Shown here: in pieces, positions 15,636 through 34,708 of the stretch
Numbering within the stretch: position 1 is the stretch's first letter
Layout of the letters: each line of letters begins with the position of its first letter
From: Sphingomonas sp. MA1305
GTDB taxonomy: Bacteria; Pseudomonadota; Alphaproteobacteria; Sphingomonadales; Sphingomonadaceae
Length of the DNA: 64,000 nt
Assembly: GCF_016107325.1 (NCBI RefSeq)
Contig: NZ_RCVT01000001.1
Coordinates: forward strand, 1,116,001-1,180,000
Direction of reading: 5' to 3'
Program-made: the position numbers and the translations under genes
The notes under the pieces: generated by a model
Told to the model about the DNA's origin: nothing
Database searches by the model: none
Seen by the model: the letters and a program-made list of their open reading frames with translations, nothing else

Positions 15636-18380
15636 GTGACCGCGATGAAGAGTTCGAAATTCGCGCAGACGGGCGCGTTGCTGCTGGCCGGCACCGTGCT
15701 GTCGGGCGTGCCCGCGATGGCCCAGACCAAACCGGCCAATCCCGCCGCATCGGCGCCGGGCACGTCTGCGGCAGCGCCCGCTGGCCAGGTCGCGGCCACG
15801 CCGGCGCCGCAGCGCGTGATCAAGACGCTGCGCGTCGAGGGATCGCAGCGCATCGAGCCCGAGACGGTGCTGTCCTACACCAAGCTGCGCGTCGGCGCGC
15901 CCTACACGCCAGAGTCGCTCGACCAGGCGCTGAAGGACCTGCAGGCGTCGGAACTGTTCGTCGACTATTCGATCTCGGGCGTCGAGAGCGGCGACATCGT
16001 GCTGCGGGTGCGCGAGAATCCGATCATCAACCGCGTCATCCTCGAAGGCAACAAGGCGCTCAAGAGCGACAAGATCACCAAGGAGATCAAGCTCGCGCCG
16101 CGCCAGATCTTCACCCGTACCGCGGTGCGCCAGGACGTGGCGCGGATCATCGAACTCTACCGCCGCCAGGGCCGCTTCGCCGCCGTGGTCAGCCCGAAGA
16201 TGGTCAGCCTCGACCAGAATCGCGTCGACGTGGTGTTCGAAATCACCGAGGGGCCGAAGTCGAAGGTCCGCCAGATCAACATCATCGGCAACGAGGTGTT
16301 CAGCGACGACAAGCTGCGCGGTGAGATGTACACCAAGCAGTCGCGCTGGTTCCGTCTGCTGTCGTCCAACACCAGCTACGATCAGGACCGGCTCAACGCC
16401 GACCAGCAGAAGCTGCGCCTGTTCTACCTGACCCAGGGCTATGCCGATTTCCGCGTCACCAGTGCGGTCGCCGAGCTGACCCCGGACAAGCGCGACTTCA
16501 TCATCACCTACGTCGTCGAAGAGGGGAAGCGCTACAAGTTCGGCGACGTCACCGTCGACAGCGAGATCCGCGACTTCGACAACAAGAAGCTCGCGGCGTC
16601 GCTGCCGGTCAAGAAGGGCGACTGGTACAACGCCAAGCTGGTCGAGGATTCGATCGACCAGCTGAGCGAGGCCGCCGGCCTGTTCGGCTACGCCTTCACC
16701 AACGTCGAGCCGGACTATAACCGCGACCCCGAAACGCTGACGATGGGGTTGAACTTCCACATCGGCCAGGCGCAGCGCACCTATGTCGAGCGGGTCGAGA
16801 TCAACGGCAACACCCAGACCCAGGACAAGGTCGTCCGCCGCGAGATCCGGCTTGCCGAAGGCGATGCGTTCAACAGCTTCCAGGTCAAGCGGTCGCAGGA
16901 TCGCATCAACTCGCTGGGCTTCTTCCAGGACAAGATGGAGATCAAGCAGAACCCCGGTTCCGCCCCCGATCGCGTCGTCCTGGAAACCAACCTTGAGGAA
17001 AAGTCGACCGGCGAGCTGCAGCTGTCCGTCGGCTATTCGAGCCTCGAACGGTTCATCATCCAGGCGAACATCACGCAGCGCAACTTCCGCGGCAAGGGCC
17101 AGGAATTGCGCGCCGGCGTCAACTATTCGACCTATTCGAAGTCGGTCGAACTCGGCTTCACCGAACCCTATCTGTTCGACAAGAACGTCGCGGTCGCATT
17201 CGACGTGTTCCGCCGCGACTATAACTCCTTCAATTATATCGGCACGCAGCGGCAGACGACCTATTCGCAGGTGTCGACCGGCTTCCAGGTCCGTGCCGGC
17301 GTGCCGCTGACCGAATATTGGCAGCTCGCGGGCCGCTACGGCCTGTCCTACGACGAAGTCGGGCTCGATCAGGCGACCTATTTCACCGACGGCGTCTGCG
17401 ACCCGCTGAAGGCCGGCCGCTATCTGTGCGAGGCGATCGGCAACCGCTGGACGTCGTCGATCGGCTATTCGTTGATCTTCGACAGCCTCAACAGCCGCCT
17501 GCGACCGACCGCGGGTCAGCGCTTCTCGTTCAGCCAGGATTTCGCCGGTCTCGGCGGCGACGTGAAATATATCCGCACCCGCGCCGAAGGATCGAAATTC
17601 TGGGGCCTGGGCGGCGGCTTCGTCTTCTCGGTGCTGGGCGAGGGCGGCTATATCAAGTCGCTCGAGGGCAGCCGTGGTGCCGGCATCGACAAGGTCCGCA
17701 TCACCGACCGCTGGTATCTCGGCGAACCGCAGTTCCGCGGCTTCGACATCCGCGGCGTCGGCCCGCGCGTGCAGCGCATCCCGTATACGACGGATGCGAA
17801 CGGCAAGCAGGTGCTGGTCACCGACCGCGACCAGATCGTCGACGACGCGCTGGGCGGCACCGCCTATTACCTCGCCCGGGCGGAGCTGGAGCTGCCGCTC
17901 GGCGCCGGCGCGCGCGAGCTTGGCCTGCGGCCGTCGATCTACGTCCAGGCGGGTAGCCTGTGGAATCTGACGCGGCCGCTGCCGACCGCGACCTTCCCGA
18001 CGATCACCGATTCCAACGGCAACGTTACGGTGCTGCCGATCAGCACGCCGGTGAAGGACAGCTCCGGTCGCCAGCTCTACATCGTCTCGTCGACCGACAC
18101 GACCAATGCCGGTGCGATCACGACCTGTGCGATCGGCTATTCGTCGACCGGCGGCGGGGCCTGCTCGGGATCCTCGACGAACAGCCTGTACCAGACTTCC
18201 ACCGCACCGTTTAAGGAAGTCTATTACGGCAGCACCGCGCTGCCGCGCGTCTCGGTCGGTATCGGCGTCAACTGGAATTCGCCGTTCGGTCCGCTGCGCA
18301 TCGATCTTGCCAAGGCGATCGTGACCCAGAAGGGCGACGATCCCAAGCTCATCACCTTCAACGTAGGGACTCAGTTCTAA
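15636..18380 (+). CDS. bamA: Outer-membrane protein assembly factor BamA
   Basis: BamA is the Omp85 core of the BAM complex, which inserts beta-barrel proteins into the outer membrane. The 914-residue precursor has a signal peptide ending at AMA (residues 27-29), a Pro/Ala linker, five POTRA repeats over about residues 50-470 and a C-terminal barrel ending in TFNVGTQF. The start is GTG 15636 with a GGGGT ribosome site; ATG 15645 is an alternative. Its stop overlaps the start of ompH, which encodes a periplasmic chaperone for the same clients. Confidence 0.97.
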   Translation: MTAMKSSKFAQTGALLLAGTVLSGVPAMAQTKPANPAASAPGTSAAAPAGQVAATPAPQRVIKTLRVEGSQRIEPETVLSYTKLRVGAPYTPESLDQALKDLQASELFVDYSISGVESGDIVLRVRENPIINRVILEGNKALKSDKITKEIKLAPRQIFTRTAVRQDVARIIELYRRQGRFAAVVSPKMVSLDQNRVDVVFEITEGPKSKVRQINIIGNEVFSDDKLRGEMYTKQSRWFRLLSSNTSYDQDRLNADQQKLRLFYLTQGYADFRVTSAVAELTPDKRDFIITYVVEEGKRYKFGDVTVDSEIRDFDNKKLAASLPVKKGDWYNAKLVEDSIDQLSEAAGLFGYAFTNVEPDYNRDPETLTMGLNFHIGQAQRTYVERVEINGNTQTQDKVVRREIRLAEGDAFNSFQVKRSQDRINSLGFFQDKMEIKQNPGSAPDRVVLETNLEEKSTGELQLSVGYSSLERFIIQANITQRNFRGKGQELRAGVNYSTYSKSVELGFTEPYLFDKNVAVAFDVFRRDYNSFNYIGTQRQTTYSQVSTGFQVRAGVPLTEYWQLAGRYGLSYDEVGLDQATYFTDGVCDPLKAGRYLCEAIGNRWTSSIGYSLIFDSLNSRLRPTAGQRFSFSQDFAGLGGDVKYIRTRAEGSKFWGLGGGFVFSVLGEGGYIKSLEGSRGAGIDKVRITDRWYLGEPQFRGFDIRGVGPRVQRIPYTTDANGKQVLVTDRDQIVDDALGGTAYYLARAELELPLGAGARELGLRPSIYVQAGSLWNLTRPLPTATFPTITDSNGNVTVLPISTPVKDSSGRQLYIVSSTDTTNAGAITTCAIGYSSTGGGACSGSSTNSLYQTSTAPFKEVYYGSTALPRVSVGIGVNWNSPFGPLRIDLAKAIVTQKGDDPKLITFNVGTQF

Positions 18381-19102
18381 TGAAGACTATCACCAAGACG
18401 TCGCTCGTCGCGGCGGCCGGCATGGCCGCTGCTCTCGTTGCGGGTGGCGCGGTCGCGCAGACCGCGGGCATCGCCACCGTTCAGCCGGACGCCGCGATCC
18501 TCAGCGCCAAGGCGTTCGACGCGGCCAACCAGCAGATCGGGACCACCTACAAGACGCAGCTCGATCAGGCGGCGTCGCAGCAGACCGCGCTCAACACCCA
18601 GCTGCGCACGTTGCTCGACACCAACAAGGACGGCCAGGTCAGCCAGGCCGAACTGCAGGCCGCGCAGGCGCCGAACAGCGCGATCGGCAACCAGATCCGC
18701 GCCGCCCAGCAGAAGGCGGAGCCGCAGATCGAATCGCTGCAGCGTCCGGCGACGCTGGCCCAGGCCTATGCGATCGAGCAGATCTCGCAAAAGTATGACG
18801 CGGCGCTGCGCGCGGTGGTCAATGCCAAGAAGATCAGCATCGTCCTGACCCCGAATGCGATCCAATATGCGCCGCCGGCGACCGACGTGACCCGCGACGT
18901 GATCGCGGAGATCGACCGGTCGACGCCGACCGTGACGATCACGCCGCCGGCCAACTGGCAGCCGCAGCAGGACACGGTGCAGCTGCTCCAGCAATATCGC
19001 CAGATCGTCGCCGCCAATGCGCAGCGCCAGGCGCAGGCCGCGCCGGGTGCCGGCGCCGCCGCTGCGCCTGCCACCACCGGCAAAGCGCCGCAGGGCCGCT
19101 GA
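18380..19102 (+). CDS. OmpH/Skp-family periplasmic chaperone with an EF-hand-like loop
   Basis: Skp-type proteins hold unfolded outer-membrane proteins on their way to BamA. The 240-residue precursor has a signal peptide ending at AVA (about residue 26), then a long Gln/Ala-rich helical region expected to form coiled-coil arms, and a Pro/Ala-rich tail. Within the helical arm lies [12 protein letters not shown] (residues 80-91), which matches the 12-residue calcium-binding EF-hand loop at every ligand position. E. coli Skp has no such loop. It is longer than Skp (161 residues). Its ATG overlaps the bamA stop by 1 base. Confidence 0.88.
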
Positions 19103-19113
19103 GCGCTGACCCG

Positions 19114-19602
19114 GTGAGCGACGACACGACCAATGCGGCGAAGGGCGCCATGACCGGTTACGACGTGACCAAGGTCATGGCGGCCCTGCCGCACCGCTAT
19201 CCGATGCTGCTCGTCGACCGCGTCGTGGAACTCGTTCCCGACGAATCGATCGCCGCGATCAAGGCGGTGACGATCAACGAGGGCTTCTTCGAGGGGCATT
19301 TCCCCGGTCGTCCGATCATGCCGGGCGTGCTGATCGTCGAGGCGCTGGCCCAGGCGGCCGGCATCCTGGCGGTGGAAAGCCTCGGCCTCGCCGGCTCGGG
19401 CAAGCTCGTCTATTTCATGGCGATCGACGGTGCGAAATTCCGCAAGCCGGTCGAACCGGGCGTGCTGCTCCGGTTGGAGGCGAGTTTCGTGCAGAAGCGC
19501 GCCAGCGTCTGCAAGTTCGCAGGCGTTGCGAAGATCGACGGACAAGTCGTTGCAGAGGCGAACTTTACCGCGATGATCGCCGACCCGCCTGCCAAGGCGT
19601 GA
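19114..19602 (+). CDS. fabZ: 3-hydroxyacyl-[acyl-carrier-protein] dehydratase FabZ
   Basis: FabZ removes water from 3-hydroxyacyl-ACP in fatty-acid elongation. It is a hot-dog-fold protein of 162 residues with [13 protein letters not shown] (catalytic His) and [20 protein letters not shown] (catalytic Glu). The GTG at 19114 is used here; ATG 19150, twelve codons on, is a serious alternative and leaves the domain intact. In many Gram-negatives lpxD and lpxA flank this gene in the bamA operon; here neither is present. It is the last gene before a terminator. Confidence 0.96.
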
Positions 19603-21042: not shown

Positions 21043-21148
21043 GCATGCGCAGGGCGTGGCGCCTCGATAGTCCGAGCGCGGCATGGCGTGCAAGGGGCGC
21101 GACGATCCGGGGTTCACCGCGGCGGCCCCCTGTGGCACCTGCTTGGCC

Positions 21149-22195
21149 ATGTGGGGGCTGATCTCAGGACGATGGCGGCGCGGCGCGACCGTCGCCGCGG
21201 TGGCGCTGACGCTCGGCGGGGCGACGCCCGTCGCGGCGCAGGACGAGGCGGGCTTCCAGGCCTATCTGCCGCAGCTGCGCGCGCAGGCGCTGGCCGCCGG
21301 AGTGACGCCGAGGACGGTCGAGGCGGTGTTTCCGACGCTGACGCTCAGCACCCGCACGATCGAGCTCGATCGCGCCCAGCCGGGCAATCCCGGCAGCACC
21401 GCGACGCCGCCCTTTGCGCCCTATCAGCGCAGCCATGTCGACGCCGCACGGATCGCGCGTGGCCGGGCGACCTATCAGGCGCAGCGCGGCCGCCTCGCCG
21501 CGGTTGAGCGGCAGACCGGCGTGCCCGAATCGATCATGGTGGCGATCTGGGGGCACGAGACCAATTACGGTGCCTATACCGGCAATTTCGACCTGCTGCG
21601 CAGCCTCGCCAGCCTCGCCTACGAGGGGCGCCGTCGCGACCTGTTCGCCGGCGAGTTCATCGCCGGCCTTAAGATGCTCGACCGCGGCGTGCCGCGCGCG
21701 CAATTGGTCGGCAGCTGGGCCGGTGCGACGGGCAATCCGCAATTCCTGCCCTCCGTCTATCTGCGCCTCGGCCGCGATGGCGACGGCGACGGCCGCGTCG
21801 ACATCTGGAACAGCCCGGCGGACACGCTGGCCTCGATCGGCAATTACTTCGCCAATGCCGGCTGGCGCCCGGGCCAGCCCTGGGGCATCGCGGTGCGCGT
21901 GCCTGCGGGGCTGGATCGCAGTCAGCTGACCAATCGCCTCGTCTCGCCGCGCTGCCCGCGGGTGTTCGAACGGCACAGCGGCTGGAAGACGATGGCCGAA
22001 TGGCGTGCGCTGGGCGTGCAGCCGCAGGGCAGGGGCTGGCCCGCCGATTCGGTGCTGGCGACGCTGATCGAGCCGGACGGCCCGAACGCCACTGCCTATC
22101 TGCTGACCGGCAATTACCGCGTCATCCTCGACTATAATTGCTCCAACTTCTACGCCCTGTCGGTCGGCCTGCTCGCCGACGCCGTGGAGGGATGA
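21149..22195 (+). CDS. MltB-family lytic murein transglycosylase
   Basis: This enzyme cuts the peptidoglycan glycan strand, making 1,6-anhydro ends. The start is taken at ATG 21149, which places a signal peptide (ending GATPVAAQ) at the N-terminus; the frame extends to ATG 21083. The 348 residues contain the SLT_2 domain with catalytic Glu in AIWGHETNYG and the GNPQFLPS motif. DGDGDGRVDIW near residue 212 resembles the EF-hand-like calcium site known in E. coli MltB (Slt35). There is no C-terminal peptidoglycan-binding domain. Confidence 0.93.
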   Translation: MWGLISGRWRRGATVAAVALTLGGATPVAAQDEAGFQAYLPQLRAQALAAGVTPRTVEAVFPTLTLSTRTIELDRAQPGNPGSTATPPFAPYQRSHVDAARIARGRATYQAQRGRLAAVERQTGVPESIMVAIWGHETNYGAYTGNFDLLRSLASLAYEGRRRDLFAGEFIAGLKMLDRGVPRAQLVGSWAGATGNPQFLPSVYLRLGRDGDGDGRVDIWNSPADTLASIGNYFANAGWRPGQPWGIAVRVPAGLDRSQLTNRLVSPRCPRVFERHSGWKTMAEWRALGVQPQGRGWPADSVLATLIEPDGPNATAYLLTGNYRVILDYNCSNFYALSVGLLADAVEG

Positions 22196-31105: not shown

Positions 31106-32476
31106 TCAATCGTCGCGCATGTCGGTAATGCCGAGCAGCTTCAACTTGCGGTGGAGCGCGGAGCGTTCCATGCCGATGAAGCTCGCCGTGCGGCTGATGT
31201 TTCCGGAGAAGCGGCGGATCTGGACGCGCAGATACTCGCGCTCGAAGGTTTCCCGCGCTTCTCGCAAGGGGGCGCCCATGATCGCGCCGCCTCCGCCGAT
31301 ATCGCCCTGCTCGCCGAGCACCTCAGCGGGCAGCAGGTCGAGATCGATGCGGCCGATGCGATCGCCGGGGGCGAGAATGATCGTCCGCTCGACCACGTTG
31401 CGGAGCTGGCGAACGTTACCGGGCCAATCGTAGGACTGTAACGCGACCATGGCGTCGGCCGCGATCTCCGGCGTCGGCACGCGGCGTTCGTTGGCATAGT
31501 GGGCGATGAAATGCTCGACCAGCGCCGGTATGTCTTCGCGCCGTTCGGAGAGCGCCGGGATACTGACGGGGACGACGTTGAGACGGTAGTAAAGGTCCTC
31601 GCGGAAGCGACCAGCGGCGATCTCATCGGTCAGGTCCCGCGAGGTGGCGGTGACGACGCGGACATCGACCTTGACGGTGCGGGTGCCGCCGATGCGGCTG
31701 AAGCTCTGGTCGGTCAGCACCCGCAGGATGCGCGCCTGCGTCGCGACCGGCATGTCGGCGATCTCGTCGAGGAACAGCGTGCCGCCATGCGCCTGTTCGA
31801 GCAGCCCGGTGCGGACGAGATCACCCCCCTCCTCCACGCCGAACAGCTCCTCCTCGACGCGTTCCGGGGTCATGCGGGCGGCGCTGACGATGACGAACGG
31901 CGCCTGGGCGCGGTTGCTCCAGCCGTGGAGCAGCCGGGCGGCGACCTCCTTGCCGACGCCGGCGGGGCCCATGATGAGCACGCGGCTGCCGGTCGCGGCG
32001 ACGCGCTTCAAGGTGGCGCGCACCGTGTTGATCGCGCCGGAGCTGCCGGTCAGGTCGTTCTCGCGCCCGGCGCTGGCGCGGAGCGAGGCGACCTCGCGAC
32101 GCAGCCGTTCGGTCTCGGTAGCACGGGCGACGAGCAGCAGCAGCCGCTCCGCCTCGAACGGCTTTTCGATGAAGTCGGAGGCGCCGCGACGGATCGCGGC
32201 GACGGCCGTGTCGAGATTGCCGTGGCCGGAGATGACGAGGACCGGGATCGACGGATCGCGGCGCTTGATCTCGTCGAGCAGGTCGAGACCGTCGAGCCGC
32301 GAGCCCTGCAGCCAGACGTCGAGCAGCACAAGCGACGGCCGCCGCGTCGCGATCGCCTCCAGCGCCGCATCGCTGTCGGCGGCGGCGCGCGTCTCATAGC
32401 CTTCGTCTTCGAGGACGCCGGCGACCAGTTCGCGGATGTCGTGTTCGTCGTCGACGACGAGGATGTCGAGGGCCAT
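31106..32476 (-). CDS. ntrX: Response regulator NtrX, lacking the GAFTGA loop
   Basis: The 456-residue protein pairs with NtrY, encoded immediately upstream. The receiver domain has phosphoacceptor D53 (LLDVWLQG); the AAA+ domain has Walker A at 170-177 (GPAGVGKE) and Walker B GGTLFLDEIA; a Fis-type helix-turn-helix ends the protein (ALHRKLKLLGI). Where sigma-54 activators have GAFTGA it reads GVEEGG (213-218), so it is unlikely to activate sigma-54 and probably works with sigma-70 or as a repressor, as proposed for other alphaproteobacterial NtrX. NtrYX systems respond to nitrogen or redox state. Confidence 0.95.
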   Translation of the reverse strand: MALDILVVDDEHDIRELVAGVLEDEGYETRAAADSDAALEAIATRRPSLVLLDVWLQGSRLDGLDLLDEIKRRDPSIPVLVISGHGNLDTAVAAIRRGASDFIEKPFEAERLLLLVARATETERLRREVASLRASAGRENDLTGSSGAINTVRATLKRVAATGSRVLIMGPAGVGKEVAARLLHGWSNRAQAPFVIVSAARMTPERVEEELFGVEEGGDLVRTGLLEQAHGGTLFLDEIADMPVATQARILRVLTDQSFSRIGGTRTVKVDVRVVTATSRDLTDEIAAGRFREDLYYRLNVVPVSIPALSERREDIPALVEHFIAHYANERRVPTPEIAADAMVALQSYDWPGNVRQLRNVVERTIILAPGDRIGRIDLDLLPAEVLGEQGDIGGGGAIMGAPLREARETFEREYLRVQIRRFSGNISRTASFIGMERSALHRKLKLLGITDMRDD

Positions 32477-32479
32477 GCT

Positions 32480-34708
32480 TCAGGTCCGATTGGAGGTAAG
32501 GGCAGCGAGCCGGCCCTCCCCCGCCGGCTCGGGCGCGGTGGCGCCCTGGTCGAGGCGGGCGAGCGCGGCACTGTCGAAGGCCATCCGCACCACCGTGCCG
32601 CCGCCCTCCCGGTCGGCGAAGGTCATGGTGCCGTGATGCTCCTCGACGATCTTCTTGACGATGGCGAGGCCGAGGCCGGTGCCGCGGGCGCGGGTCGTCA
32701 TATAGGGCTCGACGATGCGGTCGCGTTCGGGTGGCAGGCCGATGCCGGTGTCGGCGACCTCGACGATCAGAACTTCTCGATCTTCGCGCATATGCATCAT
32801 CACCGAACCACCACCTTCGCCTTTACTTTCAATGGCTTCGACGGCGTTCTTCACGATGTTCGTGAATGCCTGGCCCAACTGGCGGCGATCGCAGACCAGG
32901 GTCGGCATGGTGGCGGGATGATCGAAGGTGAAGCGGATCGACGGATGCGCGACCTCGTGCAGGAACAGGGCCTGGCGACCGACGTCGACGATCGATTCCT
33001 CGCGGAACACCGGCTTGGGCATGCGCGCGAAGGAGGAGAATTCGTCGACCATGCGGCGCAGATCGCCGACCTGGCGGACAATCGTGTCGGTCAGCCGCGC
33101 GAAGGTCGTGTCCTCGGGATCGATCTTGCTGCCGTAACGGCGTTGCAGCCGTTCGGCGGCGAGCTGGATCGGGGTCAGCGGATTCTTGATCTCGTGCGCG
33201 ATGCGCCGCGCGACATCGGACCAGGCGGCGCGGCGCTGGTCGAGCAATTGCTGGGTGATGTCGTCGAAGGTGAGGATCGGGCCGGATTCGGTCCGCGCGA
33301 TCCGCACCGCGAGCGTCCGCGGCTCGCCGGGACGGGCGACCTGGACGATCGCCTCGCGCTCGCCCGAGGCGACGAAATCGGCGAGTTCGGCGGAGACGTC
33401 CGCCAGGCGCCGACCGACCAGCCCCTCGCCCTCGTCCGCGCCGAGCAGTCCCGTCGCCGAGCGATTGGCGATGCGGATATCGCCGCCAACACCGGTCGCG
33501 ATCACACCGGCAGAAACTCCAGCCATCACCGCTTCGATCAGCGCCCGGCGTGCCTGCAGCTGCTCGTTGGCGGTGACCAATTCGGTGTTCTGCTCTTCGA
33601 GCCGCCCCGTCATCTGATTAAAGGCATTGGCGAGCGTGCCGATCTCGTCGCGGGTCCGCGGGGCGGTGACGCGGGTCTTCAAATCACCCTCGGTGACGCG
33701 CCGCGCCGCGCCGACCAGTTCGCTGACCGGACGCACCAGCCGATCGGCCACATTGAGGGCAAACCACACCGCGAAGGCAACGATGAGAAGCGAAACCACC
33801 AGTAACGCCGCATTGAAGCGCAGCTGCAAAGTACGGGAGCGCGACTGCATGGCACGGAAATCGGCGGTAATCTGCTCGCCCCGCCGCCACTGCGCCGCGG
33901 TCTGCGGGTCGAAGACACGCGCCGCGTAGAGATAGGCACCCTGCTCGTAATCCATCGGAACGATGACGCCGACGCGATCCTTGCGTTCGATCACGACCTT
34001 CGTGGCGCCCGCGTTCAGTTTCGCCGCGATTTCGGGCGTGATGATCCGTTCCAAATGCCGCTTGTACGGGTTGATATAGGCTTGCGGGATCGGATCGCCC
34101 TTCAGGTAAAAGGCTGCTTCCGACATGTTTCTGTTGAAGGCCTGAAACGCGATGCCCTGCGCGAAATATTCACTGTCAACGTCGTTCTTCGTGAGATAGT
34201 AGCGAAGATCCTTTGTCATCGCCTGCGTCTGGTCGCTGACGCGATCGAGTTCTTGATTGTAGTTGATCCGCAGCAGCGAGGTCGCGTTTTCCAGCATGCC
34301 GCGCGCGCGGTCCGAGGACCAGAACTCGACGCCATATTGAAACAGCAGGGAGGCGAAGATCGTCACCAGCAACGCGGGCACCGCCGCCACGGCAGAGAAG
34401 ATGGCGACGAGCCGTACGTGCAGTCGTCCCTCGCCACCGATGAGCGATTGGGCGGCACGGCGTCTGGCGATGCGTCGCCCCGCCAGCATCAACAGCAGAA
34501 TGCCGGGCACCAGATTGGCGACCAGCAGCAGTGCCATGACCGGGGGCGACAGAGGCACCTGTGGGGTGTTGGTACCCGTGATGACGAAATAGGTCGCCAC
34601 TGCAACGGCAATGGCGATCCCGAGAACCAGCACCTCGACAGCCGGCGTGATCCGAAGCCAGCGGTGATCGGAAGCGTGGGGCAGTGCAGGCGTCGGCGAC
34701 GCAGTCAT
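32480..34708 (-). CDS. ntrY: Sensor histidine kinase NtrY
   Basis: This 742-residue membrane kinase is the partner of NtrX, encoded 3 bases downstream. The start is ATG 34708 (MTASPTPALPHASDH); upstream codons of the frame are rich in non-family residues. The order is: three N-terminal hydrophobic segments, an extracytoplasmic region, another membrane helix, HAMP (VADRLVRPVSELVGAARR), PAS, HisKA with the phospho-His in RIAHEIKNPLTP (about residue 505), and HATPase with VADTGIGLPPE and GTGLGLAIVKKI. The 193-base gap towards ntrC should hold its promoter. Confidence 0.94.
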   Translation of the reverse strand: MTASPTPALPHASDHRWLRITPAVEVLVLGIAIAVAVATYFVITGTNTPQVPLSPPVMALLLVANLVPGILLLMLAGRRIARRRAAQSLIGGEGRLHVRLVAIFSAVAAVPALLVTIFASLLFQYGVEFWSSDRARGMLENATSLLRINYNQELDRVSDQTQAMTKDLRYYLTKNDVDSEYFAQGIAFQAFNRNMSEAAFYLKGDPIPQAYINPYKRHLERIITPEIAAKLNAGATKVVIERKDRVGVIVPMDYEQGAYLYAARVFDPQTAAQWRRGEQITADFRAMQSRSRTLQLRFNAALLVVSLLIVAFAVWFALNVADRLVRPVSELVGAARRVTEGDLKTRVTAPRTRDEIGTLANAFNQMTGRLEEQNTELVTANEQLQARRALIEAVMAGVSAGVIATGVGGDIRIANRSATGLLGADEGEGLVGRRLADVSAELADFVASGEREAIVQVARPGEPRTLAVRIARTESGPILTFDDITQQLLDQRRAAWSDVARRIAHEIKNPLTPIQLAAERLQRRYGSKIDPEDTTFARLTDTIVRQVGDLRRMVDEFSSFARMPKPVFREESIVDVGRQALFLHEVAHPSIRFTFDHPATMPTLVCDRRQLGQAFTNIVKNAVEAIESKGEGGGSVMMHMREDREVLIVEVADTGIGLPPERDRIVEPYMTTRARGTGLGLAIVKKIVEEHHGTMTFADREGGGTVVRMAFDSAALARLDQGATAPEPAGEGRLAALTSNRT

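Follow-up and report, generated by a model that had tools for sequence, protein, structure and literature searches.

The ompH gene and its product

The window (the 64,000-nucleotide stretch of DNA analysed here) carries on its plus strand an ompH/skp gene (18380..19102) encoding a 240-residue periplasmic chaperone of the OmpH family. Directly upstream lies bamA (15636..18380, plus strand), recognized by its Omp85 and POTRA domains, and directly downstream lies fabZ (19114..19602, plus strand), with a FabA-like domain scoring 123 bits. The ompH start codon begins on the final base of the stop codon of bamA (TAATG), so that the two genes overlap by one base. The minus strand opposite ompH (18380–19102) is likewise free of stops.

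That the product is of the Skp/OmpH type, as a preliminary description of this DNA had proposed, is borne out by both its sequence and its predicted fold. Pfam OmpH (PF03938) matches the window protein at 45.6 bits, above the cut-off of 32.4, and is found at E ≤ 0.01 in 25 of the 26 aligned family proteins. AlphaFold2 (AF2) modelling of the window protein with 25 relatives gave a mean pLDDT of 81.5, and of 92 in the blocks around the loop described below; the models rest on 24–26 sequences, all of them loop-bearing. The whole model has the small body and long helical hairpin arm of OmpH/Skp. Its four best PDB entries, 4kqt, the Skp entries 1u2m and 1sg2, and SkpA in 8gl8, have Z scores of 8.9–10.9 and the next entry 5.9, values to be read together with the high r.m.s.d. 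of these superpositions (2.8–9.1 Å) and with helical Z scores under about 13 being possibly generic.

Two further features flank the chaperone domain. The hydrophobic N terminus is a putative signal peptide (residues 1–26; 18380..18457, plus strand), with cleavage predicted at about A26–Q27; A26 and Q27 are invariant in the 26 aligned proteins, and residues 1–24 have pLDDT values below 50 in the AF2 model. The C-terminal extension (residues 183–240; 18926..19099, plus strand), delineated from the alignment and the AF2 model, has conserved P183, P190, P195, Q204 and final R, and a predicted helix at residues 197–220.

A complete EF-hand-type loop

EF-hand loops comprise 12 residues, with oxygen ligands at positions 1, 3, 5, 9 and 12 and a hydrophobic residue at position 8. 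Residues 80–91 of the window protein (18617..18652, plus strand) have all of these features. They also fit PROSITE pattern PS00018. The ligand residues are kept in 67 relatives. The complete EF-hand-type loop of the preliminary description stands; its assignment draws on sequence, shuffles, conservation, a PDB profile search and an overlay of the tip. A PS00018-type loop arises in 26 of 200,000 shuffles of the window protein. The match is the only one in the protein, which does not have paired hands.

Conservation in the 67 loop-bearing proteins is concentrated on the ligand positions. Position 1 is D in 66 and N in one (entropy 0.11 bits), position 3 is N in 62 and D in five (0.38 bits), position 5 is D in 60 and N in seven (0.48 bits), and position 12 is E throughout (0.00 bits); the mean for the arm is 1.72 bits, and loop positions 4, 10 and 11 are variable at 1.7–2.0 bits. 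Over the whole protein, the five columns of lowest entropy include E91 and D80. Position 9 is S/T/D/N/E in 67 of 67 and position 8 is L/V/I in 66 of 67. In EF-hands, calcium is usually bound in bidentate fashion by the Glu at position 12. Position 6, as a rule Gly in such loops, is G in only 44 of the 67. Judged from the aligned sequences, conservation of the ligand positions is the pattern that would be expected of a kept metal site and not of a plain turn.

The Pfam EF-hand models cover residues 78–95, with EF-hand_5 reaching 16.5 bits on the loop residues (E 0.006; cut-off 25.9) and EF-hand_1 reaching 14 bits (cut-off 25.4). Of the 26 aligned proteins only 4 match EF-hand_5 at E ≤ 0.01, and of a second set of 26 only 2 do so at E ≤ 0.1. 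Since both models stay below their cut-offs, we assign the product to OmpH and call its loop EF-hand-type, without counting it among the Pfam EF-hand proteins. A profile built from tip sequences, run against those of the PDB, retrieved 34 chains at E ≤ 1, the best being 2jnx, calcium binding protein 2 (3.5e-5). The top chains owe their E-values to a sum over hands; in the three alignments displayed, none of the stretches reaches E 1 by itself. By name, 28 of the 34 chains are EF-hand or calcium-binding proteins and one, the APC coiled coil 1deb, is not. The other five we take to be EF-hand proteins (three of glucosidase 2 beta, the kinase 3q5i and the coelenterazine-binding 2hps).

A second PS00018-like match in the window, within the plus-strand ORF 31442–33802, was set aside as spurious: the frame is without a Pfam family and runs antisense to two long minus-strand frames. 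By eye, one of these frames resembles a response regulator and the other a histidine kinase.

Predicted structure of the arm tip

The AF2 model places helices at residues 44–56 and 58–79, a loop at 80–88, a helix at 89–96 and a long helix at 101–149. The ascending arm helix (helix E, residues 58–79; 18551..18616, plus strand; block pLDDT 94–96) leads into the loop, which is followed by the short helix F of the EF-hand (residues 89–96; 18644..18667, plus strand) and then by the descending arm helix (residues 101–149; 18680..18826, plus strand). With the helices in this order around residues 80–88, the loop would close off the hairpin at the far end of the arm. Hence the mid-arm location given in the preliminary description is correct along the sequence but not in the model, where the loop is the outer tip of the arm hairpin. 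The tip predicted alone has the same helix-loop-helix layout as in the full-length model, and in the AF2 predictions the second helix sets in near loop position 10, as in a helix-loop-helix hand.

The tip model superimposes on residues 24–64 of the EF-hand entry 3px1 over 41 residues with an r.m.s.d. of 1.2 Å and a low Z of 3.6 (VIA-align). As the 41 aligned residues fill a range of 41, D80 falls on residue 46 of the 3px1 chain. Among the 12 VIA-align matches listed for the tip, 8 are by title unrelated helical proteins, with Z scores (3.6–5.1) at least equal to that of 3px1. Foldseek with the tip model found nothing significant (best E 4.5), 3 of the 12 matches listed being EF-hand proteins by name. 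Loopless relatives have a short turn at the same place in the alignment, for example ARAAPNANEAALRTQ. A comparison of arm length by anchor distance left 73 of 198 proteins unanchored and was set aside.

Distribution of the loop

The surveyed family was taken as Sphingomonadaceae in the wide GTDB sense and comprised 298 genomes, 279 of which contain a match to the window protein. OmpH loci were read in 198 of the 298: 65 have a strict loop, two a near-loop (NTNGDREVDQAE and DANGDGNTTNEE) and 131 no loop. The resulting 67 loop-bearing proteins come from 25 of the 69 genera read. In 66 of the 67 loop-bearing and 129 of the 131 loopless loci, ompH lies within 400 bases after bamA; two of the three exceptions are loci cut short. 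A further 26 named loci, retrieved with a set of patterns that includes one across the loop, were kept outside the frequency counts. The remaining 100 genomes either score at most 107.6 bits with a 26-protein profile (73) or have no match to it (27). They presumably lack the loop, because the loop-bearing proteins read score at least 160, and the best loopless protein 163, against at most 107.6 in these genomes.

The loop is patchy within genera, both states occurring, among the loci read, in g1, g7, g9, g15, g38, g45, g67, g80, g90 and g96. In the window's own genus (g1) it is present in G000, G245, G155 and G726, the last of which comes from the order survey and is outside the 67; G091 and G280 have a loopless OmpH, and no relative of the window protein was found in G205. 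Sphingomonas parapaucimobilis YK209 has a loopless OmpH as well. Conservation of the loop in OmpH proteins beside bamA, raised in the preliminary description, is mixed: the ligands hardly vary across the 67 proteins, but 131 others read in the family have no loop, two of them in the same genus. The loop itself is real and is conserved within one group of OmpH proteins.

Outside the family no strict loop was seen. Of the OmpH loci that belong to the same class but to other families, 65 were read and none has it, these being the best-scoring, and so not a random sample, of 101 matching out-of-family genomes in a survey of 385. Likewise, it is found in 0 of the 30 best PF03938 loci of a phylum survey in which 123 of 150 genomes matched, again top-scoring and not random. 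A loose loop pattern fits one of the 65 class and two of the 30 phylum proteins, none of them strict. In the order survey, matches to the profile from other families all score 26.4 bits or less.

The distribution also bears on a proposed tie between the loop and an unusual outer leaflet. LpxC (PF03331) was found in none of 70 family genomes, of which 26 are loop-bearing, whereas in the others OmpH either has no loop or was not read; it was found in 4 of 14 control genomes, E. coli and Caulobacter included. With the LpxC-less state constant and the loop variable across the 70 genomes, a link to the outer leaflet or to loss of LPS is not supported, and we dropped it.

Inheritance of ompH between bamA and fabZ

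Trees were built for 186 genomes, 63 of them with the loop, after 12 of the 198 had been dropped for a BamA of fewer than 300 residues; the OmpH tree was made without the loop columns. The BamA tree requires 17 changes of loop state (47–59 in 20 shuffles), the OmpH tree only two (48–59 in 20 shuffles). Simple vertical inheritance was rejected, since holding the loop-bearing BamA rows as one clade gave a p-AU of 1.6e-59. For OmpH, again without the loop columns, the loop-bearing rows as one clade gave a p-AU of 0.69 and the constrained tree had the higher likelihood; in the unconstrained tree, with its two changes, they are not one clade. These p-AU tests used quick trees of 40 loop and 40 loopless rows hand-picked from the 186.

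Within genera, pairs differing in the loop (n=34) have median identities of 70% for BamA and 33.5% for OmpH, and pairs agreeing in it (n=228) of 79% and 72%. At matched BamA identity, the OmpH medians of differing versus agreeing pairs are 37 versus 45% (BamA 60–70%), 32 versus 61% (BamA 70–80%) and 32 versus 77% (BamA 80–90%). Two genomes of one genus, G089 and G153, are 80% identical in BamA, 30% in OmpH and 94% in FabZ, and the neighbouring fabZ does not follow the loop trait. Some pairs that agree in the loop are also down to 29–33% OmpH identity, so replacement or fast change of OmpH is not confined to loop differences.

Two changes on the OmpH tree against 17 on the BamA tree, with a fabZ that does not follow, suggest that ompH has been swapped in place. 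An alternative is that two ancient ompH copies underwent differential loss. The simplest reading, and the one we infer, is that ompH was replaced in place, with its neighbours bamA and fabZ kept. The loop-bearing OmpH of G155, 48% identical to the loopless protein of G280 and 45% to the window protein, points to gain or loss of the loop within a lineage. Nothing indicated a plasmid vector: with the window protein as query, tblastn retrieved a single record from a plasmid collection, a loopless OmpH of Sphingomonas parapaucimobilis in an ordinary dxr-rseP-bamA-ompH-fabZ stretch.

Proposed role of the loop

We regard a calcium-stabilized arm tip, a structural staple rather than a sensor, as the most likely role of the loop and, on the sequences and models, a probable one. 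The hairpin turn at the arm tip of an OmpH/Skp would have become a single EF-hand-type unit made up of helix E, the 12-residue loop and helix F. We infer that this unit binds calcium, one ion at the tip of each arm of the presumed trimer, and free calcium in the periplasm is expected to track the outside medium. Calcium would fold and fasten the tip, stiffening the end of the arm, and would fix the angle of the turn from the ascending into the descending helix. A precedent for such stapling is the EF-hand of E. coli Slt35, the melting point of which is reported to rise from 48.0 to 55.5 °C in 1 mM CaCl2 (PMC8307938). The loop is dispensable for the basic job of the chaperone, since 131 of the 198 loci read are loopless in the same gene slot.

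Two readings do without calcium. Were the tip metal-free, the DxNxDG segment would be a well-capped turn joining the arm helices, ion-free in the cell. The other short turns of loopless relatives at the same place indicate that a turn suffices, yet a plain turn has no obvious need for the E that all 67 proteins have at position 12, alongside D/N at positions 1, 3 and 5, and we consider this reading unlikely. A chance match without meaning is scarcely credible: the motif is single, in a Gln/Ala-rich helical protein, and the Pfam EF-hand models fall below cut-off, but the low count among the shuffles and the near-invariance of the ligands over 67 proteins from 25 genera speak against it.

Other readings give calcium a more active part. 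As a switch, its binding would alter the angle of the tip and open or close the client cavity, so that grip followed outside calcium. EF-hands change helix angle upon calcium binding, a single site would be expected to bind weakly enough for a response at millimolar calcium, and the AF2 model has the loop at the arm tip. Position 13, which lies where helix F starts, is however variable (Q/A/I/L/V in varying proportions across the 67), without the conserved hydrophobic face of sensor EF-hands. This makes a calmodulin-like sensor exposing a target patch less likely, and a switch seems decidedly unlikely. Calcium might also let the tips of one or two trimers pair, closing the cavity round a client. 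EF-hands normally occur in pairs, and the pairing strand has a hydrophobic residue at position 8 in 66 of 67; the residue there also serves the core of a lone EF-hand, however, and we find pairing very improbable. A calcium-gated Skp, in which the three tips pair at the calcium level of the medium, inside one trimer or across two, the cage shuts over an unfolded outer-membrane protein and the trait spreads among species by in-place ompH swapping, is highly doubtful.

Calcium may help to shape the loop-bearing version of this chaperone, an escort of outer-membrane proteins. Skp works without ATP, and a site at the tip would give direct access to how grip and release are tuned in such chaperones, through a single residue (E91), a single ion, and relatives that have or lack the loop in this gene slot. 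If ompH is indeed exchanged by itself, with bamA and fabZ left in place, two deep Skp lineages would be interchangeable in one pathway.

Comparison with known systems

No report of an EF-hand in OmpH or Skp was found among the papers listed in searches of open-licence literature. In its accessible text, a paper on Skp (PMC9638971) does not mention EF-hands and names calcium once, in an assay buffer; the accessible text of a review (PMC10574481) mentions neither OmpH nor such a site.

The closest known proteins are OmpH CC_1914 of Caulobacter crescentus (4kqt; Foldseek E 8.8e-5; VIA-align Z 10.9, 161 residues, r.m.s.d. 9.1 Å) and Skp of E. coli (1sg2; Foldseek E 7.1e-4; VIA-align Z 9.3, 139 residues, r.m.s.d. 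7.0 Å). Both share with the window protein the Pfam OmpH family and a gene beside bamA. Unlike them, the window protein has a C-terminal extension after about residue 183 and a strict loop, which is present in 0 of the 95 out-of-family OmpH proteins read (65 from the class, 30 from the phylum).

Calmodulin-type proteins, such as 3px1 of Entamoeba and 2jnx, resemble the window protein in the sequence of the loop and in the predicted helix-loop-helix geometry, whereas the window OmpH has only one hand, set on the end of a helical hairpin, and is without a conserved hydrophobic target face. The lytic transglycosylase Slt35 (MltB), a cell-wall enzyme of E. coli, has one EF-hand, and calcium is reported to raise its thermal stability (PMC8307938). 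It is an enzyme with a lysozyme-like domain and not a coiled-coil chaperone, and the likeness is one without homology.

Variation at the ompH locus

Between species, ompH alone appears to be exchanged, with bamA and fabZ staying in place at its two sides, as judged from the window gene (18380-19102) and the loci of the family survey. In two surveyed genomes of one genus, G089 and G153, identity is 80% for BamA and 94% for FabZ, but only 30% for OmpH, the Skp-type chaperone. In G205, a genome of the window's own genus rated 100% complete, repeated searching found no relative of the window OmpH; either the protein has diverged strongly there or the gene has been lost.

The part of OmpH that aligns with Skp ends before a C-terminal extension (window 18926-19099), which reads TPPANWQP..., includes a Gln-rich helix and terminates in GR. 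Invariant P, Q and R residues mark this extension across 26 proteins bearing the EF-hand-type loop, and the tail of the loopless OmpH of Sphingomonas parapaucimobilis resembles it. The locus of strain YK209 (L345; NZ_CP155750.1:443382-453846) belongs to this loopless type. It is part of an 853-kb YK209 replicon, labelled a plasmid, that holds dxr, rseP, bamA, ompH, fabZ and rpmE; this replicon is either chromid-like or a wrongly labelled part of the chromosome.

Other EF-hand-like sequences in the window

At 31442-33802 (plus strand), a PS00018-like match falls within a long open frame. This frame is probably spurious: no Pfam family was found for it, and the minus strand opposite it carries two long frames resembling regulator genes.

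An MltB/Slt35-like lytic transglycosylase (21083-22195, plus strand; SLT_2 domain, 305.7 bits) carries its own loop, DGDGDGRVDIWNSPAD, so that two envelope proteins of the window have EF-hand-like loops. This loop is possibly the counterpart of the single EF-hand of Slt35 (MltB), the E. coli lytic transglycosylase.
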